A DNA stretch of 64,000 nucleotides from Flammulina velutipes. Taxonomy: Eukaryota; Basidiomycota; Agaricomycetes; Agaricales; Physalacriaceae. A program made the position numbers and the translations under genes. Each line of letters begins with the position of its first letter. The first letter of the stretch is position 1. Below the pieces are notes generated by a model that was not told the origin of the DNA, made no database searches, and worked only from the letters and a program-made list of their open reading frames with translations. The stretch lies in the NCBI GenBank assembly GCA_011800155.1, contig CM022371.1, positions 620,001-684,000 of the forward strand, read 5' to 3'. Shown in pieces: positions 36,501-57,477 of the stretch.

Positions 36501-37118
36501 CTGCACTTGGATGATCCCCGACTTCCTTTTAAAGATGGTTGGCCGAATGAAACGCCCGGATATTCGTCTCGCATGGCGGGAGAAGCTGACGATCTTCTGG
36601 CTCATCTTCCTCTTCAACGGCATCGTCATCTCCTACATTGTCATCTTCGGTCGGCTTCTCTGCCCCAACTACGACAAGGCCTGGCTCACCAACGAGGTCG
36701 CTCAGCACCAAGGCGAGAACGACTGGTGGGCCTCCGTTCAGGGCAAAGTCTACGACCTCACGGATTTCGTCCAAGGCGACCACAGTGACGTCCGTGGTCA
36801 GGCGAGCAACGGAGTCGATACGTTGGAGACGCTCGCCGGGAAGGATCTTACCTACTATTTCCCTATTCCCCTCAATCGTGGCTGCAGCGGCTTGGTTTCC
36901 GACAATACGCTCGAACTCCTCCCCAAGAACTTTTCTAACTTCGCTCCGACTGCCGATCATTCTTCTGGAACTCTCACCGCGTATCCGGAAAGTAATCTCG
37001 CCGATGAATATTGGTACCAGGACCACTTCCTCCCCAAGATGAAGAAGTATTACAAGGGGCCGCTCGTCTGGGATCGTAAGAACATCGAGGCCTGGGCGAA
37101 GGATGAGGAGCAGGAAAA
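33596..37118 (+). pseudogene. CHS: Class V chitin synthase pseudogene, 5' part (myosin motor, membrane and cyt-b5-like region)
   Basis: 5' part of a myosin-motor chitin synthase, the plasma-membrane/chitosome enzyme that polymerises GlcNAc for the cell wall. ATIYPSNDAVLNVLHSPFKA and HLVVVNPYKTLANVNNISAK begin the motor. The P-loop reads GITGSGKLSSI with Leu where GKS is expected. Lesions: a small deletion after NSFDEF shifts frame at about 35031, removing the usual residues before VQRHVFEDSIGYNSQ; and a TGG-to-TAG change, judged from the family, gives a stop at 35978-35980 after GHRMI. The rest (CTWMIPDFLLKMVGRMKRPD, FWLIFLFNGIVISYIVIFG, KVYDLTDF) is intact to the intron donor at 37119. The start (ATG 33596) and first exon are uncertain. 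The gene continues at 54562. Confidence 0.85.
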
Positions 37119-37148
37119 GTAAGCCCATTGTTCGTCCCGGGACCACGC

Positions 37149-38885
37149 TGATGCGCATTGTATTAATGCAAGTACGAAAGACCCCAAAATTTGCGATTCT
37201 AAGAAGCATTCTTAGTGATAGAACGAACCTATGAGTACAAGAACCTCTAGTTACAGACCGAAACGCGTATACGATACAGTGTAAGGAGTTTCCGTGGTAC
37301 GACCGGAAAACTCCTAAGATTCGTCGGAAAAGCGCCACACGCTGAAGGGCGTGTAGGTATAGCCAAACCACACATGACGATCTTGAATATCATCATCAAA
37401 AGTACCCCGATGGAGACATCGTGATCAAATACACTTGAACGCGCGAAACTCCGAAATACTTAACGGAATTCGGCGAGTTACCCTTACACAAGGAAACTCT
37501 ACATAAAGAGACGCAATGCCAGCAAGCAGTTAAACGCGGGCTGGACTAGCAAACCAAATGTTCATACTACTCAGACGTCGGGATATTACATAGGAGACTC
37601 AGGAGTCAGGGTAACCTTTTAGGCTTTCAAAAGATACTGCTCGATCACCGATCGACTTACTCCGGTGGACTGTTCCTGATCGATTCTCGGGATCCACAAG
37701 TAAATCGTTACAAGGACCTACAATACGAGTACTATCGACAACTCGTAAAGATACAACGATAGCTTTTCCGGAGTACTACCGGAAAAGTCCGAACACGATA
37801 CTAAGAACATACTTGCGCGTCCAGTATACCAAACCTAGTCGGTACTACTCGGACTCGTAGTATGAAATAAGAATACGAACAAAGGCTAAGAGTTCCTGCT
37901 AGACAGGACTCGGCCGCTAATAATAGTGGAAACGATGAAATAGTGGAGCTTCCAAGCACAAGGAACAACCTGGCGCCACTGCAAACTCAGTTACGGCGCC
38001 ACCATTGGTTGGATTCAAAGCAAATAGAAGCCAGAACGAATAGGCAGCAATGCCAAGGGCACCATTAGAGGGATATTCCGTACATCCTACCGGAATATTC
38101 CCCGAACCAGCGGACTCGGTATTATATCCTTATTCAGACGTATATAGAAAACACTATAAAGCTAGCTCGTTTGTACTATTTACAGTAGCTTACGCCCCCG
38201 TATCCGCAGCCCACAAGCCGTATATACTGGAGGAATAGACTCTAAGATTTAGTTAGAAAAAGAACCACTGTTTAGATAGGTGGAAATAAGAAACAGAACC
38301 AAAGATCTAAGAACTCATTGGAGCTACTTCCCATATTAAAGAAGTTGAAGCCAAGTCCTTTGCGATTCAAACGATCCGAGTTTCCGCGGGAAATTCCATC
38401 TAAAGAACCTACCAACTCTGGTTGGAGTCCCAAGTCCCATACAAGTGTGGTTCAGACTGTGCTAGGCTATCTATTCAGGCCCCGACTAGTTGTTGGAGAG
38501 TCCTGATTATACAGATAGATACCAGAGCTCCCGCTCCCTAGTGTGGTTGAAGGTTGTTGGCCTGGGAAGAGCCTCATTAGGTCTCTTTACACACATCCCA
38601 ATCGGCCTGTGACTTAGTGGCAAACTAGAACTCAGTTTAAGATCAGATCCCTGTTACCCCGTCGAACTAGTATAAGCATTTTGAGCAGAAGATAAAGAGA
38701 AACAGTCCCATAAAACAAAGATACAAAGAACAAGAACCCGTCCCATATCACCTATTACAAAACGAACGATTGCTACTATAACGTGAAATCCCGCTATAAA
38801 CATCGGACTTTCCCGCATCGCACCATTGACTTGTTAGTGTGTGTTTTGTGTGTGTTTTTGTGGCGTTCTTCTACACTGCACATCA
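37149..38885 (+). repeat. 5' LTR, 1737 bp
   Basis: Begins TGATGCGCATTG and ends TGCACATCA. Compared by eye with the 3' LTR it differs at about a dozen single bases and three 1-nt indels, under 1 percent. It includes several TTCCG...CGGAA hairpins (37285-37314, 37763-37787, 38071-38101). No coding function is apparent. Confidence 0.95.
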
Positions 38886-39410
38886 TATTTTGGAGCCCAC
38901 CGCGAGGGGTGATAAATTTGACTTAAACGATCCCTCTTATTGAGGTTCCTTGAGTTACTTCTACACCTACTTCAAAATTGCACGAAAGCCCAAAGCCAGT
39001 AACGCGAACCCCGCGCCTAGCCAAAGCTCAAACGATCAAGAACAAATCAGCCGTAGAGCTAACTTGGGTGAAAACTCAAGTGCTCCAGTTGAAAGAGAAC
39101 TCCGACACGAACGACCGCCTCCAGGCGCATTATTCGACGGAACTAAAGCTCAACGTTTAAAACACGTTCAGTCTCAAAAAGCCCAAGCAAATCCATCAAC
39201 GGATACAGGCTACCCACCTGGATATATACTATCCACGATCCCTATTTTCCCTAGACTACCTCGGATTATTCCGAGTCCTAGTCCTTTACCGAGTTTAACC
39301 CCCTCTCCCAACGAACTTCCTCAGTTCGATAACCTATTCCCAGTCACTCCGCATCCCTTTCTTGAACGATTAAGACAGTCGATTCCCCTTGGAAGACCAT
39401 TATTCCCAAT
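38886..39410 (+). other. Primer-binding-like site and 5' leader
   Basis: Five bases after the LTR, TGGAGCCCACCGCGAGG (38891-38907) starts with the TGG expected for pairing to a tRNA 3' CCA end. A U discriminator base would fit tRNA-Cys, but this is a guess. The rest is leader; an open frame (from about 38950) is Pro/Ser-rich and runs into the gag start. Confidence 0.5.
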
Positions 39411-40844
39411 GTCAGACCAAGGAGACAACGAAGATGGGCAAGAAGACAGGAAAATCCCGTGCCTCCAGCGGCAGCTGGTTATGTTAACCAGTTAAGCGCA
39501 GAGACACAAGAACAGATAGCTGGGAAACGTATGCCCGTTCCCGGTGCCAAAGATACACCAAGATTCAAAGGCGATAATATTAGGGACTTCCTAACTAGTT
39601 GCGAGTTCTTATTCTACGGCAGGGGCATCATGAGCCCTACAGCCCAAATCGAGATAGCAACTTTGTATGTGGGATATGAAATTAGACGCCAATGGGCGGC
39701 TTTACCCGAATATTCAGCCGGAGATTGGCAAGCCTTCAAAAACGCAGTACAAAAACTGTATAACAAAGGCGACCAAGATAAAGAGTTTACTCTTGAAGAA
39801 GTCGAAGAAGTCACTCGCCACTTTCGGGCAAGGCCGATCGCAACTAAGATGAGATTGATGGAGTTCAGAAGAGAGGTAGTACACAAACTACAGTATCTAA
39901 TTGATATTGGAGATGTTACTCAAAAGACGGTGTTGAATATGTTACAGTATTGCTTTGCTGGTCCAGCATGGGCAGCAATATACACCGACTTGCGGGTTTT
40001 ACCGATCCCACCCAACAATCCTCTTGGACAAAGATGGACCTTAGTTGACGTGGTCAGAGTAGCTGAAAAATACTTAGAAGAAGTGGAGACGTTCGGAGGA
40101 GCCCCTGTAGTTAATGGAGGGGCTACCAACGAACGCGAGTTAGTAACACCCTCCACTGCTCGAGTAAAGATTGAAGATATGCACGATCAAGTGGCCAGTA
40201 TCAACTCACTCACGGATACCTTGAAGGCTTTGGAAAAAGCACGACAGGATGAAATGAAAGAGATGGAGAAAGCCAGACAAGAAGATACTCGGAGGATGAT
40301 GAACCTCATGGAACGGATGTCAACGGCCAGACAAGTTCAAGTACAGCAGTATCCTGCCCAACAAATGGGATACCCACAGTACATACAACAAAGTCAACAA
40401 GCGCCATATCCCGTGCAAAACTCGGGATCCTCCGCACCCAAAGGCTTAATCCCAATGCCTACGAACTTCTTACCCCAACGCAGACCAGCAGCTGTGAACG
40501 GGAAGTGCTTCTTCTGTGACGAACCCGGACATTTCCTTATGGAATGCCCGGAAAAGAACAAACTAGAGAAGGAAGGCTGGATTTACAAACCAGCTAACTC
40601 GAACTGGTATTTCCTGCGCAATGGAATTTCTCTTACACGAAACAAGAATGGACCTAATCCGCTCGAGCAAGTGGCAAAGTTCCAGAGGGAATCGGGATCT
40701 ACTCTACCAGAAACGCCACAGGTGCAAGCATATGAAGGAATCCAACAGGAGGACTTCTTTGCTCCATCTGGAACGATTGACACATCCATATACCAACAGC
40801 AGTCGATGGTCGATCCCGCGTATTCAAGGGAGGATTTCGATTAG
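39411..40844 (+). CDS. gag: Gag polyprotein with CCHC zinc knuckle
   Basis: Structural protein of the retrotransposon particle. The ATG at 39411 (MSDQGDNEDGQEDRK) is in a different frame from the long gag frame, which is open from before 39459 (PPAAAGYVNQLSAETQEQIA) to 40844. A frameshift or error of one base near 39445-39460 is likely. The body has PRFKGDNIRDFLTSCEFLFY and the capsid-like QWAALPEYSAGDWQAFKNAV. A Lys/Glu/Met-rich coiled coil follows, then the zinc knuckle CFFCDEPGHFLMEC (CX2CX4HX4C, near 40506-40550). It ends before the separate protease frame. Confidence 0.85.
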   Translation, partial: VRPRRQRRWARRQENPVPPAAAGYVNQLSAETQEQIAGKRMPVPGAKDTPRFKGDNIRDFLTSCEFLFYGRGIMSPTAQIEIATLYVGYEIRRQWAALPEYSAGDWQAFKNAVQKLYNKGDQDKEFTLEEVEEVTRHFRARPIATKMRLMEFRREVVHKLQYLIDIGDVTQKTVLNMLQYCFAGPAWAAIYTDLRVLPIPPNNPLGQRWTLVDVVRVAEKYLEEVETFGGAPVVNGGATNERELVTPSTARVKIEDMHDQVASINSLTDTLKALEKARQDEMKEMEKARQEDTRRMMNLMERMSTARQVQVQQYPAQQMGYPQYIQQSQQAPYPVQNSGSSAPKGLIPMPTNFLPQRRPAAVNGKCFFCDEPGHFLMECPEKNKLEKEGWIYKPANSNWYFLRNGISLTRNKNGPNPLEQVAKFQRESGSTLPETPQVQAYEGIQQEDFFAPSGTIDTSIYQQQSMVDPAYSREDFD

Positions 40845-41017
40845 GCTCGAGGACGGACGGAGGTTCGTCTGAAATACTGCGACAGCGAACCCTCCCTCCT
40901 GAGAGCCAAAATACTCAGCATCGTACAAGAAGTCATAGCGCGATAGAAAAGGAAAAACCAGAAGAGCCTGAACCAGTTGAACCACAAAAGAAGATACCTC
41001 AACCCAGAGGTCTAAGA

Positions 41018-42085
41018 ATGGAAGTAGTGATCCCTACTCGACAGAAACAAGTAAAATTCGTGGAGCCACCAGTGGCGGAAATAGACGATGAAGAACCCGA
41101 CTTGAGTGAGATACTCGAGGAGGTACTGGAAGGACCAGAACCCATAGAAAGTCGCAAGACTGAAGATAAACGGGAAAATCCCGCTAACGCCACGGAAGAA
41201 GCCGCCGTAAAGAAGGAAGTAGAAAAACATAAGAGCTACCAACGCATATCAAAGCTAAAGGATCTCCTTAGCCGGAATCCCGGATGGCGTTCTCTATGGA
41301 AGAAACTGCTCCCCGAAGAACTGTTAGCAACTAACGAGGCTTGGCAGAAAGACCTGTTAGAAAACTTAAGAGCAAAGAACGTTAAGGTCAACCAGCAGAC
41401 AGTTGAATCCGACGAAATCCCGGAATATCACGCAAGTGAAGATCCTATGTACTACTCGATTAACTTACAAAATTCGAGTCAGCTACCTCTAGGATCAGTG
41501 GTATGCCATGATTTGGTCGAACAACTGTTTAACCATACGGGTTACGCTGGCCCATACCAACTACCACGATCAAACGTTGCAGCTGAAAGTGCTGACCTTC
41601 GAACCCTATGGCCCACGATCTTTGGGGCCGGCAAGAAGGAAAGTCTACTTGATAGCGGGTCCCAAATTGTATCGATGTCGTTAAAAGCCGCGCTTGAATT
41701 AGGAATCCCATTCGATCCTTCATTCAACATTATTATGGAAAGCGCCGACAAAGGACAAACCCGCACTGCAGGCTTAGCCAGAAACGTAGCATTTGACTTT
41801 GGTGGAATAACGTTCTATCTACAAGTTCATATCATCAGAGACCCTGCATACGAAGTCCTTTTAGGACGACCCTTTGATGTGATCTCGAGTATCAATACGA
41901 CTACCCTTAAAGATGGTGCTGTCGTAGCGACTATAACAGATCCTAGCAATGGGAAGAAAATCACTTTGCCTACATACAAAGAGGGCAAATGCCTAGGTAT
42001 CAGCAACCCGTGGCTATACCGGTTTTTCTGCAACACTCGAGGAATTGATCGAGGATCAAGGAGAGGTTGCTCTAATCCTAAGTGA
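41018..42085 (+). CDS. pro: Retropepsin-like aspartic protease ORF
   Basis: ATG 41018 (MEVVIPTRQKQVKFVEPPVA), 355 codons. An acidic N-terminus leads to the protease domain: LLDSGSQIVSMSLKAALELG with the DSG catalytic triplet (Asp codon 41651-41653), then VAFDFGGITFYLQVHII and YEVLLGRPFDVISSI, the ALLGxPF-type second motif. Cleaves Gag and Pol during particle maturation. It is in its own frame, separate from gag (stop 40844) and pol. How it is expressed is unclear: frameshifting, reinitiation or mutation are all possible. Confidence 0.85.
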   Translation: MEVVIPTRQKQVKFVEPPVAEIDDEEPDLSEILEEVLEGPEPIESRKTEDKRENPANATEEAAVKKEVEKHKSYQRISKLKDLLSRNPGWRSLWKKLLPEELLATNEAWQKDLLENLRAKNVKVNQQTVESDEIPEYHASEDPMYYSINLQNSSQLPLGSVVCHDLVEQLFNHTGYAGPYQLPRSNVAAESADLRTLWPTIFGAGKKESLLDSGSQIVSMSLKAALELGIPFDPSFNIIMESADKGQTRTAGLARNVAFDFGGITFYLQVHIIRDPAYEVLLGRPFDVISSINTTTLKDGAVVATITDPSNGKKITLPTYKEGKCLGISNPWLYRFFCNTRGIDRGSRRGCSNPK

Positions 42086-42430
42086 TCAAGGGTCTCAGGG
42101 GATACATTTGGTGGAAACCTATGTGCCCGGAGATTCCCGGTCAACTTTCACAACCGAAGCCGTTACGAACCTATACCTAAGAAAATCCACAGAGGGTATT
42201 CACAATGCAGTTAAACCCTTGCGCAATGAATATCAATACGAAGAACCGCCTGTAGCATACGATAGCACAGGAAGGGAATTTCCGGGGAATCAACGGAAAA
42301 TCCACGCAAGAAGATAGCGGGCTTCCATAAACATGGAAACCTGTCTAATACGATAGAAACTTGGAGTCAGCCTTTAACAGACGATCAAAAGTATCCTCCA
42401 AGTTTTGAACAGGACTTAGCTAGCCATCAG

Positions 42431-45400
42431 TTGGATACAGCGAATATATTCTACGACGTTCCCGCAGAACTAAGTAAAGTGTTTAGCAATCTAACGGTTA
42501 CACTACCTCCTGAAGCATGGGGCTCAGAACAAGTCAAGTTCCTAGAGCAAGTCAAACAGAAAGCCGCTCCTGTACAAGTGCTAGCTTCGAAGAAATATAA
42601 ACCAGTGGCGTTGAAGGTCAAACCTCACTTAGGAACCTTACCAGACGAGTTCAGAATTGTGCGAAACATTGTAGGCGATCCCCTGGAGGGAATGCCTGTA
42701 TTGAATCCCAATCCACCTAAGTTTCAACCCACCGGGCGATACACGGAAGAACGAAGAGAACAAGTACAGAAGGACCATACCGGAAATTTCCTATGGCCTC
42801 AAGAACGAGATTTGATAGACGACCTCATGTGTAAGCAGAATGAAGGCTTTGCATGGGAAGAATCAGAGAAGGGAAGATTCCGGGAAGACTTCTTCCCGCC
42901 AGTAGACATGCCAGTCATACCTCATGTACCATGGGTACTAAGGCCAATCAAGATTCCTCCGGGAATCTTCAACGAAGTCTGCGCGATAATAAAGAACAAG
43001 CTGGACTCCGGCGTGTATGAGCCTTCGAACTCGTCATACAGGTCGCGTTGGTTCTGTGTAGTTAAGAAAGATGGCAAGAAACTTCGATTGGTCCATAGCT
43101 TAGAACCATTGAATGCAGTTACTATTGCGCATTCAGGCTTACCTCCCGCCACCGAAGAATTAGCGGAAGCGTTTGCTGGAAGAGCTTGTGGGGGTACCCT
43201 AGACTTGTATGTCGGGTACGACGAACGACACTTAGCGGAAAAATCCAGAGACATGACAACGTTCTCTACTCCGTATGGGGCATTACGACTCAAGACCTTA
43301 CCCATGGGTTGGACGAATTCAGTACCCATCTTCCACGAAGATGTTACTCATATTCTCAAAGACGAAATACCAGCCTTTACTAGGCCTTACATAGACGATG
43401 TACCAGTTAGAGGGCCAGCTACTAGGTACCAAGATAAAGATGGCAACTACGAGACAATCCGTGAAAATAACGGAATCCGCCGATTCGTATGGGAACATAT
43501 GATCAACATGAATAGGATCATACAACGCATGAAGTACTCGGGGGGAACCTTTTCTGGGCATAAAGCTATCATTTGCGCGAACGAAACCGTAGTAGTAGGT
43601 CATACCTGTTGCTATGAGGGCCGTAAACCTGCAGAAGAACGAGTCAAAGTCATATCAGATTGGGTACCTTGTGAATGCCTAAGAGACGTTCGTTCATTCC
43701 TTGGAACTGCAGGCGTTTTCCGAACGTTTGTGAAAGACTACTCTAAGAAAGCACTGGCAATGACCAGGTTGACAAGAGATGGTGTGTTGTTTCATTGGGG
43801 AGAAGAAGAACAAGCCTCGATGGACTCATTAAAGAGAGCCCTTGAGACAAGTCCCATGCTGAAGCCCTTGAACTATGATTGGGATACTCCGATTATATTA
43901 TCGGTGGATACCTCTTATATGGCGGTAGGATTTTATCTTAGTCAAGAAGATCCTGAAGACCCTAAGAAACGTTACTATGCGAAGTTCCTATCGATCACTT
44001 TGGATGAGCGTGAGGCTAGATACTCACAATCAAAGAGGGAGTTGTTCGGACTTCACCGCGCATTAATGGCGTGCAAGTACTATCTATTAGGTTGTCGAAA
44101 GCTGAAGGTAGAAGTCGATGCAAAGTACATTAAGGGAATGCTATCAAACATCGACTCCCTTACCAACGGGAACCTACAAAGATGGGCAGAGGAGATACTC
44201 ATGTTTCACTTCACTTTGGTACATGTACCTGGAAAAGTCCATGGTCCGGACGGACTGAGTCGAAGGGTGCCTGCACCTGAAGACATTATCATACCCCGTC
44301 CTCCAGGAGATGAAGAAGAAGACGAGCTGCCTAGCTTTGAGTATGAAGAACCTAACGACTTAGCGGACGAGGACAAGCCTCTCCCCTTCGAGGACTTCAA
44401 AGATGCTATAGATACTAAGACAGGTTACCTGCAAGAAGTACGGGAAATTCCCGTAAGTTTACCGGAAAGCTCAGTAAACGACTTCGAGCAGCCCTCAGAA
44501 GAATACCGCGCTACTCAACTAGCAGCAATGGCGGTAGAAGACCTTGAGAAATGGGTAGCAATTGAGGAGTTTCCGGACTTAGAAAGGTCAAGTAGAGAAG
44601 CTCTATGGGAAACTCTCTTGCCACACGTTGAAGCTTGCCTACGCAACAGTGAATATGAAACCGAAGAATTGTCCACCAGACAACTATCAACGTTGAAGGA
44701 CTGGGCATCTAAGGATTTCTTCATTGCGGGTGGGAAGTTATACAAGAAGCACAAAGAAAACAAGCACCGTCGAGTCCTCTTAGTAGGGAAACGGTTGCCA
44801 GTAGTGACTATAGTACATGATAAACATGGCCATAAAGGACAATACTCAGTTCGACAATTAGTTGGCAAGAGGTTCTGGTGGCCAGGCATGGAAGACGACA
44901 TGAACTGGTTTGTTAAGACTTGTATTCTTTGCCAAAAACGACAGAAGATTATCATCCATAAGGAACCTACGATTACACCAACACCAGGAATATTTGAGAC
45001 TGCTTTTGTGGACACATTCCGAATGCCGAAATCAGGCGGGAAAAATCCGAAGATCAAAAAGTATGACGGCTATAATGCTGTCACAGTGGCTCGATGTGGA
45101 CTTAGTGGTTGGCCGGAAGCAAGGGCCTTGATCAACGAGAACGCGGATACTCTAGGAGACTGGCTCTTCGAAGATATCCTATGTCGTTGGGGATGTATAA
45201 AGCAGATCATAACAGATAATGGTCCTGCTATTAAGAAAGCGATGGTTCATATTGAAGCCAAGTATGGAGTCAAGGGTATCCTCATTACGCCGTATAATAA
45301 ACAGGCTAATGGGAAGGTCGAACGCGGACATTGGGACATAAGACAATCCTTATTCAAAGTCTGTAGGGGAAATCCCGAAGAATGGCCGGCATACCTACAC

Positions 45401-45988
45401 GAAGTACTATGGGCAGAACGAATCACTGTTAAACGAACACTTGGACAGTCACCGTTTTACGCGGTAACAGGATGTGAACCCATCCTACCGTTAGATATAA
45501 ACGAAGTGACTTGGTTGGTTGATATTCCGGATTCCTTAGTGTCGCATTCAGACTTGATAGCGTTTCGTGCACAACAGCTCATTAAACACAAAGAAGATGT
45601 GAAACGTATGAAGCAAAGAGTCACAGATGCCAAGATTCGAGCAGCGGCTAAGTTCATGGAAGATCATAAGAACAGAATGCCATCTCACAAGTTCAAAACT
45701 GGTGAACTGGTATTAGTCCGAAATACTAGGATTGAAGAGGAACTCAATCACAAGTTCAAAGAACGATTCATGGGTCCATACGCCGTAGTATCGCGTACGA
45801 CTGGTGGAAACTATGTCCTATGTGAGCTAGACGGATCCTTACTCAAAGATAAGATTGCGCAGTTTCGGGTTATTCCGTTTTATTCACGGAAAGACCCCAG
45901 CTTCTTAGGAGACTTGTTCTTCAAGAGACTACACATGATACGTGGCTCTGTAGGCAAAGTTATGGACGAATTAAACAAGAAAGCATGA
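42431..45988 (+). CDS. pol: Pol: reverse transcriptase, RNase H, integrase
   Basis: 1185 open codons; no ATG at the 5' end of the frame (it opens at TTG), so it is probably made as a fusion with upstream ORFs. RT: KLRLVHSLEPLNAVTIAHSG, GYDERHLAEKSRDMTTFSTP and YIDDVPV (catalytic YIDD near 43390). RNase H: ILSVDTSYMAVGFYLSQ, SKRELFGLHRAL, KVEVDAKYIKGML. Integrase: HHCC zinc domain (HDKHGHKG to CILCQK), then catalytic Asp in FVDTFRM, Asp in ITDNGPAI and Glu in ANGKVERGHW. The C-terminus has a GPY/F-like module (KFKERFMGPYAVVSRTTGGN) and no chromodomain. No stops or frameshifts inside. The gap 42086-42430 has a short open frame, probably a pro-pol linker. Confidence 0.95.
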   Translation: MDTANIFYDVPAELSKVFSNLTVTLPPEAWGSEQVKFLEQVKQKAAPVQVLASKKYKPVALKVKPHLGTLPDEFRIVRNIVGDPLEGMPVLNPNPPKFQPTGRYTEERREQVQKDHTGNFLWPQERDLIDDLMCKQNEGFAWEESEKGRFREDFFPPVDMPVIPHVPWVLRPIKIPPGIFNEVCAIIKNKLDSGVYEPSNSSYRSRWFCVVKKDGKKLRLVHSLEPLNAVTIAHSGLPPATEELAEAFAGRACGGTLDLYVGYDERHLAEKSRDMTTFSTPYGALRLKTLPMGWTNSVPIFHEDVTHILKDEIPAFTRPYIDDVPVRGPATRYQDKDGNYETIRENNGIRRFVWEHMINMNRIIQRMKYSGGTFSGHKAIICANETVVVGHTCCYEGRKPAEERVKVISDWVPCECLRDVRSFLGTAGVFRTFVKDYSKKALAMTRLTRDGVLFHWGEEEQASMDSLKRALETSPMLKPLNYDWDTPIILSVDTSYMAVGFYLSQEDPEDPKKRYYAKFLSITLDEREARYSQSKRELFGLHRALMACKYYLLGCRKLKVEVDAKYIKGMLSNIDSLTNGNLQRWAEEILMFHFTLVHVPGKVHGPDGLSRRVPAPEDIIIPRPPGDEEEDELPSFEYEEPNDLADEDKPLPFEDFKDAIDTKTGYLQEVREIPVSLPESSVNDFEQPSEEYRATQLAAMAVEDLEKWVAIEEFPDLERSSREALWETLLPHVEACLRNSEYETEELSTRQLSTLKDWASKDFFIAGGKLYKKHKENKHRRVLLVGKRLPVVTIVHDKHGHKGQYSVRQLVGKRFWWPGMEDDMNWFVKTCILCQKRQKIIIHKEPTITPTPGIFETAFVDTFRMPKSGGKNPKIKKYDGYNAVTVARCGLSGWPEARALINENADTLGDWLFEDILCRWGCIKQIITDNGPAIKKAMVHIEAKYGVKGILITPYNKQANGKVERGHWDIRQSLFKVCRGNPEEWPAYLHEVLWAERITVKRTLGQSPFYAVTGCEPILPLDINEVTWLVDIPDSLVSHSDLIAFRAQQLIKHKEDVKRMKQRVTDAKIRAAAKFMEDHKNRMPSHKFKTGELVLVRNTRIEEELNHKFKERFMGPYAVVSRTTGGNYVLCELDGSLLKDKIAQFRVIPFYSRKDPSFLGDLFFKRLHMIRGSVGKVMDELNKKA

Positions 45989-45990
45989 GC

Positions 45991-46030
45991 TGATGGTAGG
46001 GATACCATCATATAAAGCTTGTGGGGGATA
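45991..46030 (+). promoter_or_regulatory. PPT-like module 1 (after pol)
   Basis: Short hairpin GATGGTAGGGATACCATC followed by ATATAAAGCTTGTGGGGGAT, a purine run. Its layout resembles the sequence just before the 3' LTR (52759-52799). Confidence 0.5.
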
Positions 46031-46098
46031 TAGAGGCATTCCCGAATAACGAACGGAATTTACATAGAGGCATTCCCGAATAACGAACGGAATTTACC
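46031..46098 (+). repeat. Tandem 34 bp duplication
   Basis: TAGAGGCATTCCCGAATAAC onward is repeated directly with a 34 bp period (starts 46031 and 46065). Each unit contains the TTCCCG...CGGAAT hairpin motif of the element. Confidence 0.8.
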
Positions 46099-46473
46099 AG
46101 GAATTTTCGATTTTACTTGGTACATACCAACGATACGTTCAAGATGTATTATCATTGAGAATGAAGATAGTATAGCAGTAACGTTAAAGATATACTGTAT
46201 ACAAACCGTACAAATGATGAATATCTTTTCTTTAATAAAAGGTACCATTCCCGATGCGGGGTTGGGGAAATTCCCCACAATCTAAGATAAGATTCCGAAG
46301 AGCTAGGCCCATCAGAAACGGAATGGCCCTTTCCATTTCGGAGTTGATCGACAGGATCACCGGACCGGGTCCGTGATGGTGAACTTAAAGAGAAAATTTG
46401 AGAAAAACGAACTCATCCTTCAACCACCATCGCAGCGACGCGACTCTGCCAAAACACGAAACAGATCCACGCG

Positions 46474-48561
46474 ATGTCGTCTATTTCACGTACCATACCG
46501 TCTACTAGCTTCTTTGAATTGAAAAACCGGCCCAAGGCGCTCGCATTCGAGCGCCGCCACTTCTCTAAAAATGCGATCAGACGACTTCGTTATATTCCCG
46601 GCAATTGGCGGACTTTGCCTGCCTGCCACGTTCCGGAAGACTACCAGGTCTTCTGGAGGCAATTTGAGAAGGCGGCCGAGGAGTTCAAACATTCGGCCGC
46701 TAGCAACAATGTCTGGTTGGAGCAAGTCCTTACAAGGGCTTGGCAAATATACGAAGAGTTGCCAGATGTAACGGTAAGATAAAGATCACGTCGGCAGATT
46801 CCGATAATTTAACGGAATCGACTTAGACAAGTGAAGATGAAAGTGGCGACGAAGGAACAGTCGAGAAGAAAGACAAAGAAGAGAATGTCAAGGTAAGTTT
46901 CCTTGAGTCGAACGGGTAAATTCCGGGAAACTCAATGGAAAACCCTAGACGTCTGAAGGTAAAGGCAAAGATGCCACCGACGAAGAGGTTGGCGACGAAG
47001 AAGACCAAGTCCAAGGAACAAGTTCCAAGGGCAAAGAAGTAAGAGTAAGATAACCCAAATACCGGTATGATTAACGGACTTGGTATAGGACTCGGGAAAT
47101 GAGAGTACCGATGGCGAAGAACAAGTCGACGAGTCCGTCGACAAGGATCAAGAAGATGAAGAGGCTCAAGATGAGCCACAAGAAGACAAGCAAGCTGAAG
47201 AGCCTGCTCAAGAAAAGGTTGAGACTCGAACTTGGTTATAGCGAATTCCGCTAATGTTAACGGAATTCCTAGGATCAGGAAGATAGCGAGGCTCGAGAGG
47301 AGCCACAACAAAGGAAAGGCTCTTCCAAGAGCAAAGAGCAAGCGGTAAGTAGCTAAGCTCTAAAGGCTATATTACAGCTAATACGATCTACGATAGAGCG
47401 AGGAAGAAGATTCCGGGGAGCACAAGGAAAAGTCCGCGCTAACCCCGGAAAGGTCTCCAAGTTCGGAGATTCCACGTCCCCCTCCACGAAAGACGAAAAC
47501 CGTGCCAAAAGGCTCCAAGTCCTAGGGTAGTGGCACCTCGACTCCCTCCCCAGGTGCCCATGCAGATGCCACCAATGGCTATGGTCAAACCTGCTAGGGC
47601 TCCTGTAGCCAAGCCCGTGCAAGGGTTATGCAAATGCCGCCCATGGTGATTGCTGGACCCAAGAGAAGAAATCGAGGGCTTGGGAACGAGAAATTGTCGA
47701 AGTTGTCAGCCATGGCAGCTCCAGCGGCAACTCCGGTAGAGGACCCGGAGGTGGCATTCATACGAGCGGTGAGCTTTCGAGCAAAGCAAGCGAGAATGGA
47801 AGATGACTCCGGACAGGAGGTCGTGGATGAAGAAGCACCTTCTCCCAAGAAGAAGGCCAAAACGATGAAGAAGACGACAACGAAAACGGTGGGTAAGGTG
47901 GCTCCCGTAGCCAAATCCAAACCCAGCGTCAAGTCGACTCCGATGGCAAAACCGGACTCGCCCGCGAAAGCCAAGGGAACGAAGAGGACTCGCGAGATCG
48001 AAGATGGCGACGCCGATGATAGCAGTGGCGATGACCAAGGCAACGACGACGACGACTTCGAGCCAAACACGACGACTTCGAGCCCAATAACGATGACTTC
48101 CAGCCCTCCGACGAACCACGGCCAATTCCGAGGAACATCGGAAAGTGAAGGACCGGCTAGGAAGAAGAGGAAGACGGCCAAGGGAGCCGTAGTCGCGAAG
48201 TCGACGAAGAGCAAGGGCAAGCGCAAGGCAAAAGCCAGTTCCCGAAGGCGAGCTTTGGAAGTACTCGCAAGTACTTTGCAAAGAGTGTCTCAAGGCAGAC
48301 AAGGAATGCAAGTACGCGACTCCTACGACAAGTCTTGCATACGCTGCCAAGTCATGAAGCTCAAATGCGAGAAGTGGACCGGAGTCGGATGTGGTCAAGC
48401 GTCGACCACAAGCCTTGTTGGAAACGATCCAAGGCTTGCGAAACGACGTCGACCAGTTGGTCGAACAAAACGGCAGACTCACGGACGCCGTCAACGATTT
48501 ACTTAGGCATTGGGGAGATCCCAATGTCCTAACGTACTATGGGTCCACGGAAATTCCGTAG
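46474..48561 (+). pseudogene. Retrotransposon sense-strand extra gene 1, intron-containing, frameshifted
   Basis: Start MSSISRTIPSTSFFELKNRP at 46474. The first exon ends at 46773, then five clear GT..AG introns of about 50 nt, all phase 0, separate Glu/Lys/Asp-rich exons (TSEDESGDEGTVEKKDKEEN, TSEGKGKDATDEEVGDEEDQ and others). Beyond 47510 the frame is broken: single-base shifts near 47515 and 47625 separate it from the basic Lys/Pro-rich part (47640-48250). Near 48255-48370 two Cys sets, LCKECLKADKECKY and SCIRCQVMKLKCEK, lie in different frames; together they would form a CX2CX6C pair like Zn2Cys6 or related agaricomycete Cys clusters. A coiled coil (VDQLVEQNGRLTDAVNDLLR) ends at 48559-48561. 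Function unknown; DNA/RNA binding is a guess. Confidence 0.6.
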
Positions 48562-49334
48562 CGGGTCCCAGTCGTCGTCGTTGAAAAGATAACTCGAGTT
48601 GAAGAGGTCGAAGCCTAGCTCCCTCAGACACTTGAGTTGTTCTTTCTTGTTTCTTCGTTGGCCTCTTTGCCGGGTTTTTGTCGGACTCTTCTCTTCGCGG
48701 ACTTGTATATGTATATATACGATACATACGAACATGGGACTTAGCGGGTCAGTGCCAAAATATTTACATACATACGAGATACAAAAATAGCGAGCACGCT
48801 TTAGATTTGACACAAAATGGTGTGAACTAAGATCAAGAAAAGCTTGAAAACCAACAAGAGATACCAAGTCATTGAGACAAGGGATTCTCCGGGTTTTCAA
48901 GTGGAAAAACAGACTCTTCTAGGATGAAAGCTTAGTAGACTAACAAAGATACCAGTATGATAGCATCTAATAAGTCAATGGGAGACGCCATAAATCATGA
49001 CGATCTCCGGACTTATCAGGAGCGCGAACATTGGTTATAACTAGAGACTACGCTAAGGCTAGTACGTCTCAAGTTACATAGAAGAACAAGCCAACGAAGG
49101 TCTTAAGCCATATATACCTGAGGCTACGAGTACGAATGCAATAGCATGAAGAATACTCAACTCCGATGAAGATACGGGAATTCCCGCGCCACCATCAATT
49201 TGAACCACAGAACGAACTTGGTAACAAGGAAAGGGTCTAAATTGAAGGTATAGCGCTACGACATAGGATAACCGACAAACGATATAGACTAAGTGTCTAA
49301 CACCAAGATGATAGACTTTTAACGGAAAATCCGA
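48562..49334. other. Spacer with PPT-like module 2
   Basis: No supported gene. At 48951-48986 ACCAGTATGATAGCATC precedes TAATAAGTCAATGGGAGAC, which closely resembles TCTATGGGAGA before the 3' LTR. Confidence 0.5.
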
Positions 49335-50502
49335 CTACTGGGTCGGAGGAGTACATTCGACGGCAGGATGACTAGTGGGACAGTGGGTACACATAGTCTG
49401 TCCTAGCGTATTGAAGTGGGTCTATCAGAAGAAAGGTGTTAGAATAATACACTAGACGTCGAACAGAAAGACTTACGAAAGATCTGACCACTGGTACTGG
49501 AGAACTGATTGGAACAAGTTCAGGCGTTGAGCTAGATCGCCGTTGAGCAACACAATGGGGCTCTGGTACGAACTCAGTGAAGCGTTCGGCGTGGGGACCA
49601 AGTCTGAGGTCACTAGCGTCAACCAACCCAGCCGGAAAATCGTGTAAAGGCGAATAACCGTTGGTAACGACCCGTTCATACATGATAGGACGAGTATCAA
49701 ACTCGGGCTGAATGTTGTTAGCGGAAAGATAACGAGGCCACCAAGCGACCAATTGAATGTCGCTGGCATCCATACGAGATAGAGGGACAGGGATAGCATC
49801 CAAGACCTCAGGATGGGCAAAGATCCCACCCAAAGAGTCAGGCGCTCCCCTATGATAGCCCAACATTACGCTGGTCTATGGAAAATCCCGAGATTTAGTA
49901 CGGAAAAGGTGTATAGGTTAAAGAACTCACGATGAAATCGGCGCTAGCGTCCAAGTACAACTCCGTAAAGTGCATATGGGGTTGGCGATATACTTTGGAA
50001 AGCCATCCTTCGAAGGAAAGACCATCGAGGGTACAGTTTCCCGTGCGTCCATGAAAGAAGTTGGACACCAATCGAAGACAGACGATATACAACGAAGCTA
50101 AGTTGTAGGCTTGCCCTGTACGAAAGTCGGGATGTTCGCAATGCCACAAACTAGAAGCGTGTTGCTATCAAGGCCGTTAGACCCGCGAAATGTAAGGAAA
50201 AATCCGAGACGTACCATTACGCCTAGGGTGAACCTCAATGTAGGAGTGTCTATCTGACGAGCAGGACCTAAGTGCAAGTCCGCAGCCGCATCGGTATACC
50301 GTGCGGTAAGATCCAAGCTATTGAGTGGCGTGACCACGATAGGAAAGCCTTGAGCAGTGCGATATAACGATATAGCAACGGCGAGACCAGTCTCTGCCTG
50401 CAAGAAGTCCAAGGCCTCCTCGGAAAATCGCTTGTCCAAACCCGGAATCATGGCGATTTTGAAGTTGGCCCATAGAGGAATCAAAGCGATAGGAGAAGGC
50501 AT
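49335..50502 (-). CDS. Retrotransposon antisense extra gene 2
   Basis: Antisense to the element. Start MPSPIALIPLWANFKIAMIP at 50502, with ALDFLQAETGLAVAISLYRT in exon 1. After introns: SNFFHGRTGNCTLDGLSFEG and MHFTELYLDASADFIVSS; then SVMLGYHRGAPDSLGGIFAH and QLVAWWPRYLSANNIQPEFD. The last intron (about 49430-49485) joins VVRSF to THFNTLGQTMCTHCPTSHPA and an end at TAG 49335-49337. The C-terminus has CTHCPTSHPAVEC, CX2CX3HX4C, one residue short of a Gag-type CCHC knuckle. All exons look open, unlike gene 1. I recognise no family. Confidence 0.6.
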
Positions 50503-50944
50503 CTGAGACAGACGAAGACCGAGACATTACAAAAGTTCAGTCTTATAAACGATGTACAAATCTAATAGGAGGTGTATGATCGACTGGCTAATGGGTCGGG
50601 TATTCGTCAAGGCGAAGAAAATAACGAACGTATAGGCTATAGAAGATTGCCAATACGGAAAACGAAAATTGTAAACCCCTAAGAACAAGAAAGGAGACCG
50701 GCGAAGACTTCATGCGAAATTCCGCTAGGAATCACGGAAGTGGCGCACAAGTGTTTTCGGGGTCTAGCTTGAAGTTCAAATCACACGAAGTTTAGGGGAC
50801 AGTTATATTTGAAGTCAATAAGCGATGGCTACAGTATCAGAAAGATAAAGATAAAGATAAAGAGCCCCGGAAACACAATAGGTAAACAGTAGTATCACCC
50901 GGAAAGAAGGGATGGGCAACTACCTAGTTGTAACAGGGAAATAT

Positions 50945-52574
50945 CTATTCGAGCATAGACTTGACAGTAGCGATATACAAGTCCTTGGTACGGTTGAACG
51001 TCTGGACGTCGCCGTGAATACGATTCAAGAGTCTAATCAACTCATTGCGATGCGCCACCTCAGTCGAAACAAGACCAGGTCCGAGTTCAGTCAACTCGTC
51101 GGCGGCGAGGAGTCGGTTGACTTGTTTGATAACTCGAGCAACAGAGCTTCCGTAACTCTGAGCGGTAGCGCCCGCTAAGAAACACGGAAAAATGCGATAA
51201 GTACGAGATTAAGATAAGAAGAACTAAACGCACCTCCAATGAATTGTTCAACAAAGGTGTTGTCAATACGAACGGAGTCAACCTTAAGGCTCTTAAGAGG
51301 ACGAGGAGATCCATCTTCCGTAGCTTTGCGTTTAGTGAGCAAAGGAGCAGGTTCCACGAAAGTGACCGTACTTCCTATAACCTCCATGGCCTTCTGGTAT
51401 GCGCGAGAAGTTATCAGCATACCTGGGATCATCGAGTAGGGAAGATAAGTTACCACACGGGGGCCTTCGACTTCAGCAGGCTATGAATAAAGGAGAAATA
51501 CCTTTAGTTCAAGCCTTAGAATAAAAAGACAAGTACGAACCGGAGAAGGGGGGAAGTCCTTGCGGCGCACTCCATCTCCATCAATAATGGTCAAGTCCTG
51601 CAGGGGTTGAGTCAATCTTGAGACGCCTAGAAGTAAGCAACTAAGCTCACATCTTCATCGTCAGAAAGATCAGATTCAGACCCACCATCGTCCATTTCTG
51701 AAGAAACCAGACAGTCCGTTTAGTAAAGCGGAGAGTGCCGGTCACGAAAGAACATACCGATATCCTCAGTAAGAGTGGCGTTGGTAGTATCTCCAACGGC
51801 CTCGAGGGCATCGTCGATAATGGCGGCAGACTTAACAGTCTTACCAGCCTAAGAAAGTGATACAAGTTAGAAAGACCGAAGAATAAGCGGAAAAGTCCAT
51901 ACCTTTTTCGCGGCAGCCCGCATGGCTTTAGCAGTAAGCTTGGGTGCAGGTGTAGGCTCAGGAACTGGAGCTGGCGCCTTGACCTTAGGAACTACACGCG
52001 AAGCAGCATGAAGGGGGTGGCTCTCGGGATAAGGTGGTGCGATATAAGCCTTGCCTCGACCCACAGTATTAAGAACTGGAGTGAACATATCCGCAAGGTT
52101 GATACGGTGATGAGTTGGGCTAACGCCTAACTCCAAGAGATAAACCCCAAGGACGTTGCGCAGATTCCAGAAGAAGGAGAAAATCTCGAAGGAAGCCTCC
52201 GCGGCGGTGGTTCCCTTCAGAGATTGATTGATGAGCTAGAAGATAAATAAAGATCTTAGCATGAGACATAGAAAGAAAGCGGAAAGACATACCAGCAACT
52301 TGCTAAAGAACTTGTCCACAACGACAATCGGAATATCCCGTGGCGTCGGATTGGCAGACACCGTACGCAACAAGGCCATCACTGGGGCAGTGAGCTGTTC
52401 GATGGCGTCGACAATAAGGGAGTTGGTCGAATCCGGGAGCGAGTAATTAACCAAGAAGTCGTTGATCAATGGGGCAGTAGCAAGGCGATACTGGACGAGC
52501 TCCAGCGTAGCAATGGGGGCTTCCGCAGAGATTGAAGAACCAATGGAGTGCCATTGAGGGATCTTGGGAGGCAT
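50945..52574 (-). CDS. Retrotransposon antisense extra gene 3
   Basis: Start MPPKIPQWHSIGSSISAEAP at 52574; helical N-terminal part (LVQYRLATAPLINDFLVNYS, IEQLTAPVMALLRTVSAN), then FFWNLRNVLGVYLLELGVSP and a Pro/Ala/Lys-rich linker. An acidic stretch follows (DGGSESDLSDDEDDLTIIDG). The C-terminal part has VTYLPYSMIPGMLITSRAYQ, LKSLKVDSVRIDNTFVEQFI and a final helix ELIRLLNRIHGDVQTFNRTK, ending SMLE with TAG at 50945-50947. Six or more introns of about 50 nt. It lies directly upstream of gene 2 in the same antisense orientation. No family recognised. Confidence 0.6.
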
Positions 52575-52758
52575 AGTAATGAAGGATAAAACGGAGAGCG
52601 CCACAGTTTTCAGCCTGCTTTTATAGTAAAGAAATATTGGCAATGGAACGTGCAAAGCCGGGAGAATTCCGTTGAAATAAGCGGAATTGTCCTCCTACCT
52701 ATTGGCCTTTCCAAGAGCCGAGTCCAGGAAGAATATTGAGGGATCCAACGATAGGGGA

Positions 52759-52799
52759 ACCAGGATGGTGCGGACACCATCAAATAAGTCTATGGGAGA
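52759..52799 (+). promoter_or_regulatory. Polypurine-tract-like site before the 3' LTR (module 3)
   Basis: Hairpin GATGGTGCGGACACCATC then AAATAAGTCTATGGGAGA directly abutting the LTR TG. The purine run (ATGGGAGA) is short but correctly placed for priming plus-strand synthesis. Confidence 0.6.
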
Positions 52800-54539
52800 T
52801 GATGCGCATTGTATTAATGCAAGTACGAAAGACCCCAAAATTTGCGATTCTAAGAAGCATTCTTAGTGATAGAACGAACCTATGAGTACAAGAACCTCTA
52901 GTTACAGACCGAAACGCGTATACGATACAGTGTAAGGAGTTTCCGTGGTACGACCGGAAAACTCCTAAGATTCGTCGGAAAAAGCGCCACACGCTGAAGG
53001 GCGTGTAGGTATAGCCAAACCACACATGACGATCTTGAATATCATCATCAAAAGTACCCCGATGGAGACATCGTGATCAAATACACTTGAACGCGCGAAA
53101 CTCCGAAATACTTAACGGAATTCGGCGAGTTACCCTTACACAAGGAAACTCTACATAAAGAGACGCAACACCAGCAAGCAGTTAAACGCTAGCTGGACTA
53201 GCAAACCAAATGTTCATACTACTCAGACGTCGGGATATTACATAGGAGACTCAGGAGTCAGGGTAACCTTTTAGGCTTTCAAAAGATACTGCTCGATCAC
53301 CGATCGACTTACTCCGGTGGACTGTTCCTGATCGATTCTCGGGATCCACAAGTAAATCGTTACAAGGACCTACAATACGAGTACTATCGACAACTCGTAA
53401 AGATACAACGATAGCTTTTCCGGAGTACTACCGGAAAAGTCCGAACACGATACTAAGAACATACTTGCGCGTCCCGTATACCAAACCTAGTCGGTACTAC
53501 TCGGACTCGTAGTATGAAATAAGAATACGAACAAAGGCTAAGAGTTCCTGCTAGACAGGACTCGGCCGCTAATAATAGTGGAAACGATGAAATAGTGGAG
53601 CTTCCAAGCACAAGGAACAACCTGGCGCCAACTGCAAACCCAGTTACGGCGCCACCATTGGTTGGGTTCAAAGCAAATAGAAGCCAGAACGAATAGGCAG
53701 CAATGCCAAGGGCACCATTAGAGGGATATTCCGTACATCCTATCGGAATATTCCCCCGAACCAGCGGACTCGGTATTATATCCTTATTCAGACGTATATA
53801 GAAAACACTATAAAGCTAGCTCGTTTGTACTATTTACAGTAGCTTACGCCCCCGTATCCGCAGCCCACAAGCCGTATATACTGGAGGAATAGACTCTAAG
53901 ATTTAGTTAGAAAAAGAACCACTGTTTAGATAGGTGGAAATAAGAAACAGAACCAAAGATCTAAGAACTCATTGGAGCTACTTCCCATATTAAAGAAGTT
54001 GAAGCCAAGTCCTTTGCGATTCAAACGATCCGAGTTTCCGCGGGAAATTCCATCTAAAGAACCTACCAACTCTGGTTGGAGTCCCAAGTCCCATACAAGT
54101 GTGGTTCAGACTGTGCTAGGCTATCTATTCAGGCCCCAACTAGTTGTTGGAGAGTCCTGATTATACAGATAGATACCAGAGCTCCCGCTCCCTAGTGTGG
54201 TTGAAGGTTGTTGGCCTGGGAAGAGCCTCATTAGGTCTCTTTACACACATCCCAATCGGCCTGTGACTTAGTGGCAAACTAGAACTCAATTTAAGATCAG
54301 ATCCCTGTTACCCCGTCGAACTAGTATAAGCATTTTGAGCAGAAGATAGAGAGAAACAGTCCCATAAAACAAAGATACAAAGAACAAGAACCCGTCCCAT
54401 ACCACCTATTACAAAACGAACGATTGCTACCATAACGTGAAATCCCGCTATAAACATCGGACTTTCCCGCATCGCACCATTGACTTGTTAGTGTGTGTTT
54501 TGTGTGTGTTTTTGTGGCGTTCTTCTACACTGCACATCA
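52800..54539 (+). repeat. 3' LTR, 1740 bp
   Basis: Matches the 5' LTR end to end with TG..CA termini and is followed by the ACGC target-site copy (54540-54543). Confidence 0.95.
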
Positions 54540-54561
54540 ACGCGCTAATTGTCTCCCTCAG

Positions 54562-57477
54562 GCTTTGGATCATCTGGGACAACAAGATCTACGACCTGAC
54601 CGACTACTTCAATACGCAAAACACCTTCTCCAACAACCCGAATTACCAGTTCATTTCAGCGGATGTCGAGGACGTGTTCAAGCAACGAAGCGGTCAAGAC
54701 GTCTCGAAGGACATGAACGAGATTTTTGCTGCGATGAATTCGACGTATCGCGGGGCTCATCTCAACTGTCTGGATACGGTCTTCTACTTCGGCGACACAG
54801 ATTTCCGAACCACTGCGAAGTGCCAGGTCCACAACTACATGTTGCTCGTCTTTTCAGGAATCATGATGGCCTCCATGGGTCTCAAGTGTACGTTCCTTCC
54901 TCGTTCCAGCGTTGCGTTGACTGATATACTCTCTTAGTCCTCGCCGCCCTCCAGCTAGGTAGCAAACGGTAACCCGGGACTGCAGGACAAGTTCGTCATC
55001 TGCCAAGTTCCCTGCTATACCGAAGGCGAGGATTCGTTGAGGCGGACAATCGATTCCTTAGCGGCATTGAACTACGACAATAACAGGAAACTGCTCTTCA
55101 TTATCTGCGACGGCAACATTATTGGTAGCGGCAACAATAGGACAACCCCGCGAATCGTCCTCAACATCCTAGGCGTCGATCCGAAACTCGACCCCGAACT
55201 TCTCCTCTTCAAATCCGTTAGTGAGGCGTCGAAAGCGCTCAACTATGGCAAGGTATACTCCGGACTTTACGAGTTCGAGGGTCATGTTGTCCCGTAAATA
55301 AACTCTTATTGTCATCGATTTCTAGTGCTAATGTCGATCTGCAGGTATATGGTCATTGTCAAAGTCGGCAAACCGACTGAACGCTCTCGACCCGGAAATC
55401 GTGGTAAACGTGACAGTCAGATCCTCCTGATGCACTACTTCAACAGAGTTCACTTCGACACCACAATGTCGCCTCTGGAGCTAGAGATATATCACCAAAT
55501 GCGCAACGTAATCGGAATCGATCCCGCTTTCTACGAGTATATCTTTACTGTGGACACTGATACTGTTCGTATTTTCTTGACTTCTGTGTCGTAGTTTTAC
55601 TGATAAACCCTTTAGATGGTGACACCCAATGGCCTCAATCGACTGGTTGCGTCGTCGTCCGACGATTCCACCATTATTGGTATCTGCGGCGAGACGAAAG
55701 TCGCGAACGAGCAAGAGTCCTGGTGGACGATGATTCAAGTATACGAATACTACATCTCGCATCATCTGTCGAAGGCTTTCGAGAGTCTGTTTGGGTCGGT
55801 GACCTGTTTACCTGGATGTTCCCCACTCTATCGCATTCGGACGGCGGACAAGGGACGACCCATCATCATCTCCAATCGCATCATTGACGAGTACGCTGAG
55901 CCCAACGTCGACACTCTGCACAAAAAGAATCTCTTCTCTCTCGGAGAAGATCGATTCTTGACCACGTTGTTGATGAAGCACTTCCCTACTTTTAAGACGA
56001 AGTTCTGCGGAGATGTGGTCGCGCATACCATTTCTCCAGATTCCTGGCGCATCCTGTTCTCGCAGTGTCATCGTTGGATCAACTCGACTGTTCACAATCT
56101 CCTGTCCATGATCGTACGTTAACGCCTGTTTATCTCGCTATGATGTTAACATGTTTCTCTCCAGATCTTACCAGCCACTGTTGTCTACGTATGTTCTTGC
56201 CCCAACTCGATTTCGGCCAACTAATTGTCTTCTTTTCAGCTTGTCTATCTCATCGTTGTGGTCTCGATCGGCACGTCTGTGTTCCCAATGATCACAATTA
56301 TTATGTTGGCTGTCGTCTATGGTCTACAGGTTCGTCGCTCGTTAACTACCAACTCCAAATACTCATCTTTGGACAGGCTATCATCTTCCTCATCAAACGA
56401 GAATTCATGCTCATCGGATGGATGGTTGTGTACATTCTCTCGTAAGTTTTTTCCTCTGCGTACTTCTCTGCTTCATACTGACCTTTCCGAAGTTACCCCG
56501 TCTACTCGTTCTTCCTTCCCATCTACTCGTTCTGGTGTATGGACGAGTTCAGCTGGGGTAACACGCATCTGGTCGTCGGCGAGGGCAAAGAAAAGAAAGT
56601 CATCATCAACGAGGACGAAAAGTTCGACGAATCGATGATTCCCCTCAAGAAGTTCAGCGGTATGTTTCACAATGCTATTTGACTGTCCTTTACTGATTCT
56701 TTGTCTGCAGAGTACGAAGCAGAGGCTTGGGAGACCGGTTCGTGCCATTCGGATGAGACCAGTTATACGAAGCCTCGCAGTCGTTCGCACGCAGGCGGCT
56801 CTCGCCCTGATTCGCCTCAGACGTACCACCAGGCATCCCACGCTGGGGACTACTACCGCGATACGAATGCGATGTCGAACTCACGCCTCGGAAGTCAGCC
56901 GTCTCTAACCAACTTATCGCAACGAGATGGACAATCGCAGTATGGAGCGCCTCAACTCCCGAACATGTTCAGAGGATCAAACGCTGGCTCGGATTATGGA
57001 CATGGACCAATGCAGCCTCCCATGGGCGTTCCGTATCAACACTTCGGGAGCATGATGGGTGTGCCTGCGATGGGGTACCAGAATACTGGCAGCATGTACG
57101 GCATGATGCCTCCCCAACCACTAGGCGCACCTCGGAACACGATGATGACCATGAACCCGATGTTCACTGGCAGAAGTTTTAGGAATGGCTCGCAATCTGG
57201 CCATTCTCTCTTTGCGCCGCCGATGATGCCTGCTGCGATGGGTGGAGATCAGCGTCTGTTGTTGACGTTCTCGATGGCGACTACCGTCAATCCATTCGCC
57301 GGTCCGAGCACGAGCATGAATCCTTCAGACGAGGAGCTGACCACTGAGTCCCTCGCCAACACGACTTTGCATCTTGGAAAGCTCGTCCCGCAGCTCAGAT
57401 GCTTCCTTGCTAGGTTCCTGTGCAGGATGGCTGTGCGCAGACACCGTGTCATTGTCCTTTCGACGCTGTATCTCTAA
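54562..57477 (+). pseudogene. CHS: Class V chitin synthase pseudogene, 3' part (catalytic domain)
   Basis: Continues from 37118 with LWIIWDNKIYDLTDYF, then [40 protein letters not shown] and [20 protein letters not shown]. Catalytic motifs are altered: VDTDT for VDADT, GEDRFL for EDRYL, and SQCHRW where chitin synthases have QRRRW (about 56060-56080). After VHNLLSMI the usual membrane stretch is missing up to ILPATVVY. SWGNT is kept. The Ser/Met/Gln-rich tail (YEAEAWETGSCHSDETSYTK onward) ends at 57477 without a DEK_C domain. With the lesions in the 5' part, this locus cannot make an active enzyme. Confidence 0.85.

Follow-up and report, generated by a model that had tools for sequence, protein, structure and literature searches.

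The window considered here, a 64,000-nucleotide stretch of the Flammulina velutipes genome (NCBI GenBank assembly GCA_011800155.1, contig CM022371.1, positions 620,001 to 684,000, forward strand), contains a complete 17.4-kb Ty3-type retrotransposon that carries three additional genes, here called A, B, and C, together with a repeated CCG/CGG dyad that the product of gene A may recognize. Direct-repeat comparison places its long terminal repeats (LTRs), both in plus orientation, at 37149 to 38885 (5′ LTR, 1737 bp) and 52800 to 54539 (3′ LTR, 1740 bp); they are identical at 1724 of 1740 aligned columns (99%), have the ends TGATG...CATCA, and are bordered by the target-site duplication ACGC on the left (37145 to 37148) and right (54540 to 54543). 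A preliminary description had rightly reported a Ty3-type element with a sense gene (A) and two antisense genes (B and C) after pol, but it noticed no 3′ LTR there; the LTR at 52800 to 54539 puts all three genes inside a complete element.

The core of the element, on the plus strand, begins after the 5′ LTR with a possible primer-binding site, read by eye (38891 to 38908, beginning TGGAGCCC). It is followed by a gag-like open reading frame (ORF) with a zinc knuckle, CFFCDEPGHFLMEC, and no Pfam family (39366 to 40841), an aspartic protease ORF (40781 to 42082; Pfam Asp_protease_2, 25.9 bits against a cutoff of 24.3), and a pol ORF encoding reverse transcriptase (RT), RNase H, and integrase (42266 to 45985). 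The closest solved relative of pol is Ty3 Gag-Pol (4.3e-35, residues 225 to 668); Pfam recognizes RNase H and H2C2 in it, while RVT_1 stays below its cutoff (18 versus 29.6 bits). The integrase, at residues 841 to 1075, lies 3′ of RNase H and matches the integrase of prototype foamy virus (3.2e-08), so that protease, RT, RNase H, and integrase follow one another in the Ty3/gypsy order. A likely polypurine tract, TCTATGGGAGA, was read from the sequence at 52789 to 52799 (plus strand) and also adjoins the 3′ LTRs of other copies.

Gene A occupies 46474 to 48560 on the plus strand and is interrupted here. Genes B (49335 to 50502; 4 exons, 335 amino acids) and C (50945 to 52574; 7 exons, 428 amino acids) lie on the minus strand and are open, in this copy and in both of the other copies checked. 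The outer bounds given in the preliminary description are the start codons of A (46474) and of C (52574), the latter 225 bp from the 3′ LTR, and its impression of intron-rich genes is borne out by the spliced models, whose splice sites were read by eye; a gene finder using pol codon use gave poor models. All three genes had been called unrecognized. This holds for B and C, for which the protein collection yielded no homologue at E 0.001 and Pfam no family up to E 1, hence no TRP28 (PF04195), but not for A, which is recognizable as a Zn2Cys6-type protein. The C terminus of B, CTHCPTSHPAVEC, is a possible zinc knuckle.

A DNA search of the 38.1-Mb genome with the B-C region returned at least 18 full-length copies at 96 to 100% identity, plus partial ones; the LTR gave at least 39 full-length copies and one partial copy at 97 to 100% identity (the best 40 of 125 candidates). 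In 16 of the 18 full-length B-C copies, an LTR from among these 40 lies 224 to 227 bp downstream. Gene A gave matches of more than 1 kb at 77 to 100% identity among those listed. Besides these copies, which we call family 1, there is a second family (family 2) with a pol protein 85% identical to that of family 1, and the A, B, C set is kept in order in both, B and C being antisense in family 2 as well. Between the families, the nine B and C exons compared, out of 11, show 35 to 74% identity (six of them 45 to 57%), and the C-terminal part of A shows 31 to 37%. At all 25 places listed for family-2 C, B is matched no farther than about 4 kb away, and at 16 of them a listed pol lies within about 12 kb (the best 37 of 248 pol candidates). 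A gene set common to many copies and to a second family is not a single chance capture. The other possibility raised at the outset, that these are ordinary single-copy host genes, was rejected as well: among the matches listed in this genome, none looked isolated and host-like. The ratio of nonsynonymous to synonymous change (dN/dS) for B and C is 0.10 to 0.24 within family 1, and 0.24 to 0.27 between families, where synonymous sites are near saturation. These ratios indicate that B and C are under purifying selection, as their intactness had led the preliminary description to suppose.

One family-1 copy has apparently inserted in gene A of another (G000:C18:2413-35439); A positions 671 to 975 and 972 to 2086 abut the outer LTR ends, with 4 bases in common. 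The window element and the element at G000:C8:2633974-2651364 (L009, L017) have letter-identical LTRs on both sides, including the differences between the 5′ and 3′ LTRs, and they occupy different sites, with ACGC at each. Ordinary retrotransposition would equalize the two LTRs of an element; DNA-level copying or gene conversion is a possible source of such a pair.

Gene A appears to encode a zinc-cluster protein. Its open alleles specify 626 to 631 amino acids, with a Zn2Cys6-type cluster and a coiled coil. The cysteine pattern is CX2CX6CX9CX2CX6C in all 10 family-1 copies fetched in addition to the window copy (12 loci, two of them overlapping) and CX2CX6CX8CX2CX6C in all eight family-2 copies. 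The Zn2Cys6 consensus is CX2CX6CX5-12CX2CX6-8C, and the spacings in both families fall within it. In contrast to Gal4, the second half of the cluster seems to be the one with the basic loop. The model of the zinc cluster has one long and two short helices, and Foldseek ranks 1 to 12 of 15 are Zn2Cys6 domains; the model of the N-terminal region is helical, with a mean predicted local distance difference test (pLDDT) score of 60.7. In sequence comparisons, Pfam Zn_clus gives a partial match below its cutoff (10.7 versus 21 bits), PUT3, PPR1, and GAL4 among PDB sequences are not significant (E 0.38 to 3.4), and a homologue search returned three fragments with 82 to 88% identity over 56% of the query. 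The window copy has three TAG codons in the best last-exon match to an open allele. In an alignment of 11 copies, four keep an uninterrupted frame between start and stop codons and have GT-AG introns, three have frame breaks (the window copy, L041, and L047), L048 lacks an inner stop and has a length not divisible by three, and three were left unsettled as open or broken. Whole-gene dN/dS for A is 0.12 to 0.27 (five alleles, the four open ones and L048; ten pairs).

Gene A is also far more divergent than the rest of the element. Three copies compared outside A are 92 to 100% identical per 150-bp block (mostly 97 to 100%), and identity of the window copy to the other two falls to 65 to 94% in the blocks that span 46349 to 48637. 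Synonymous differences among the five A alleles amount to 8 to 34% of sites (ten pairs), and by exon (six pairs) divergence peaks in exon 1 (0.32 to 0.43) and in the zinc-cluster part (0.46 to 0.67). In family 2, 40 to 74% of synonymous sites differ in 25 of 28 pairs of A C termini, and the B-C side of two copies is 96% identical. The region 46350 to 48770 (L039 to L048, L051 to L059) is thus deeply and mosaically diverged in otherwise near-identical copies of both families. Either selection maintains old A alleles that recombine into a young backbone, or the sequence of A is pushed to diverge, for instance as an escape from homology-dependent silencing; the data are compatible with both. An excess of synonymous over intron change, suggested by whole-gene numbers, was set aside: exon by exon, both are low in the middle of the gene. 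A possible parallel is the local LTR hypervariability described for the Podospora element crapaud in the available part of PMC10787394.

Zinc-cluster dimers read two CCG/CGG triplets at fixed spacing. We ranked all 106,496 combinations of triplet pairs and gaps (4096 pairs, 26 gaps) in each family, and CCG-N9-CGG was the most over-represented in both (22 against 3.5 in family 1; 40 against 3.6 in family 2). Family 1, counted over the internal region and 3′ LTR, has 22 CCG-Nk-CGG sites at gap 9, 16 at gap 10, 6 at gap 8, and 2.0 at each of the other gaps; in family 2 (L051, L053) the only conspicuous gap is 9, which has 41 sites, one of them within the overlap of the two loci. CCG-N9-CGG is at background in 46.6 kb of host flank (5 sites at gap 9; 1 to 10 at any gap) and likewise in 28.6 kb of eight other RT loci (4 sites), at least three of which are perhaps copies of one family, and is outside the top nine combinations in the host flank, in those eight loci, and in the 4.1-kb variable part of the family-2 copy L052. 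The flanking bases differ by family: TTCCG..CGGAA in family 1 (382 genome-wide versus 115 for the reversed pattern) and CCGCYA..TRGCGG in family 2 (193 versus 9). These family-specific dyads fit a zinc-cluster protein. Family 1 (37149 to 52799) also has an excess of the inverted arrangement CGG-N6-CCG (19 versus a mean of 2.9), so half-sites may form larger arrays.

In family 1, dyads at gaps 8 to 10 are densest in introns (per kb: A, 12, 3 sites; C, 8.7, 3 sites; B, 6.3, 1 site), followed by the LTR (3.4; the 6 dyads of the 3′ LTR) and gag-pol (2.4; 16 observed versus 1.6 expected); exons of A, B, and C have 3.3, 2.0, and 0.8, the leader 0, and the host 0.3. The dyads in A introns 1 (46801 to 46815, gap 9), 3 (47062 to 47077, gap 10), and 4 (47248 to 47263, gap 10) are kept, with constant gap, in 11 of 11 copies; that in intron 2 keeps its gap in 7 of 11 and has TGG instead of CGG in the other four. 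Upstream of A, a 34-bp tandem repeat of two units (46030 to 46097, plus strand) has CCG-N9-CGG in each unit, and gap-10 dyads precede the starts of B and C, by about 220 bp (50722 to 50737, in the C-B spacer) and about 95 bp (52669 to 52684), respectively. Four of four family-2 LTR copies have an identical set of seven dyads. Only one of the 10 family-2 pol dyads is retained in family 1, and of the nine unshared ones, two leave the peptide identical between families and four coincide with a single residue difference; by this comparison pol dyads turn over between families. Two occurrences of a dyad that is also present in the family-2 LTR flank a family-2 pol at a distance of 23.6 kb from each other (G000:C1:1029688 and 1053268), which suggests a possible length of about 23 kb for some family-2 elements.

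CpG dinucleotides figure in the insertion sites too. At family-1 junctions (30 LTR loci, L009 to L038) the 4-bp target has a central CG in 17 of 17 upstream and 15 of 15 downstream cases, and likewise in all five family-2 junctions examined (L060 to L063), whereas CpG makes up 5.6% of dinucleotides in the host flank of the window; integration thus seems CpG-specific. Within the 30 LTR copies, 47 of 4740 CpG letters outside dyads are changed, and 45 of the 47 changes are C-to-T or G-to-A, which suggests CpG methylation. Dyad triplets have 0 changes in 900 letters, and in three internal copies the corresponding counts are 0 of 306 for dyads and 23 of 2090 for other CpG letters; by column, the dyads differ significantly neither from other CpG (0/20 versus 22/158, P 0.14) nor from all LTR columns (0/30 versus 70/1709, P 0.63), and this contrast carries no weight in our argument. 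A methylation shield around dyads was rejected, as there is no gradient and CpG beside dyads is unprotected.

Among the closest known counterparts is VANC of the Arabidopsis VANDAL elements, described in the available portions of PMC5735166 and PMC10398659 as a sequence-specific anti-silencing protein. There, as here, an element-encoded protein that binds DNA (putatively, for A) goes with a short motif that is repeated in the element, also in introns of its own genes, and rare elsewhere, and motif and protein differ between related families; the dyad too is dense in the element, rare elsewhere, and family specific. According to the same portions, VANDALs are Mutator-like DNA transposons with YAGTATTAY in one orientation, mainly in noncoding repeats; in the putative system described here, the element is an LTR retrotransposon, the protein has a zinc cluster, and the motif is a spaced dyad present in pol as well.

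We give a probability of about 0.6 to the reading that this Ty3-type retrotransposon is autonomous and carries a module for self-recognition. Binding of the CCG/CGG dyads by A is likely, given the Zn2Cys6 pattern, the top-ranked dyad, its family-specific flanks, the retained intron dyads, and the conserved gene set. A would dimerize through its coiled coil, and the dimer would bind dyads on the element's own DNA, in the LTR, introns, pol, and the spacers that precede A, B, and C. The analogy with VANC suggests that occupancy of many sites would counteract host silencing of the family concerned and would also activate the LTR and the promoters of the three genes. Transcription of B and C would run antisense from near the 3′ LTR; that their products are nuclear partners in this process is a guess. 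If A does bind the dyads, we lean toward anti-silencing as its main purpose, with plain activation a possible but less probable one. The fullest version, which we put forward tentatively, is that a fungal Ty3 lineage has its own sequence-specific anti-silencing, independent of plant VANDALs, with a self-encoded zinc-cluster dimer, an element-wide dyad present even as silent sites in pol, protein and dyad that codiverge, deeply diverged A alleles, and a CpG-targeting integrase.

An activator-only role, in which A merely drives transcription of the LTR, A, B, and C and the pol and intron dyads are incidental, would suit the classical function of Zn2Cys6 proteins and the dyads in the LTR and upstream of the three genes. 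Promoters would have no need of the gag-pol excess or of the highest density in introns (where counts are small), and we regard this alternative as unlikely, if the most serious. Fungal hosts have many Zn2Cys6 factors, and the link between A and the dyad is itself deduced, so a host zinc-cluster protein, such as a silencer or activator, might read the dyads while A has another target; yet neither the host flank nor the eight other RT loci are enriched for the dyad, and the flanking bases change between families along with A, which makes a host reader improbable.

Another alternative makes the dyads RNA hairpins with a role in packaging, splicing, or translation; it would agree with their frequent location in introns and with family-2 dyads such as CCGCTA-N3-TAGCGG, which would fold. 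We consider this very improbable: G-U variants, with which an RNA stem would be compatible, show no excess in family 2 (2, 4, and 3 against 4.0, 2.7, and 3.4), and stems in general are without enrichment at these loop sizes. All 18 single-letter dyad variants in family 2 are near background, which fits a protein site, unlike an RNA stem. In family 1, two variants are in excess, CCG..TGG (13 versus 6.2), which may be CpG decay, and CCC..CGG (12 versus 2.7), for which we have no explanation. The least credible alternative makes A, B, and C passengers without function for the element; the failure to find B and C homologues and the broken A copies would accord with it, but gene order is kept in two families and the dN/dS values of all three genes speak for constraint.

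Gal4-type regulators recognize paired CGG triplets at fixed spacing. A resembles them (Put3, Ppr1, Leu3, Hap1, and Pho7) in having a six-cysteine cluster followed by a coiled coil; unlike them, it sits in a transposable element, and its putative triplets are everted with a gap of 9 to 10. As for the antisense genes, the available part of PMC11963269 describes the plant Ty3/gypsy elements Retand, Grande, and RIRE2, in which a long stretch from pol to the 3′ LTR likewise contains genes in antisense orientation, with a suspected regulatory role; that text mentions no self-binding motif for them, and TRP28, present in the antisense ORFs of Retand, was not seen in B and C with Pfam. Fungal DNA transposons and Helitrons with a TET/JBP dioxygenase, as partly accessible in PMC12730594, share the idea of a fungal element with a proposed counter to host methylation; the element described here is an LTR element, and A is no enzyme as far as Pfam shows. 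Giant elements are described in PMC6431247, again as far as its available text goes. The suggestion that this lineage is undescribed is drawn from the titles and abstracts listed in the open-licence literature; none of them reports a Ty3 element of fungi that has a comparable gene set or a zinc cluster for its own sites, or that follows a CpG rule. Sequence-specific anti-silencing has so far been described for plant DNA transposons; if our reading is true, a second and unrelated case, in retrotransposons of fungi, would make it a general strategy, and antisense retroelement genes would gain a plausible role. CpG-targeted integration and a hypervariable regulator gene are two additional testable oddities.

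The window element interrupts a short intron of a gene (36385 to 37148 and 54540 to 56700) that encodes a cytochrome b5 domain and that we take to be a chitin synthase gene. Near the end of the window there is an inverted repeat with arms of at least 375 bp and 99% complementarity (62912 to 63286 and 63626 to 64000), which extends up to the last position.

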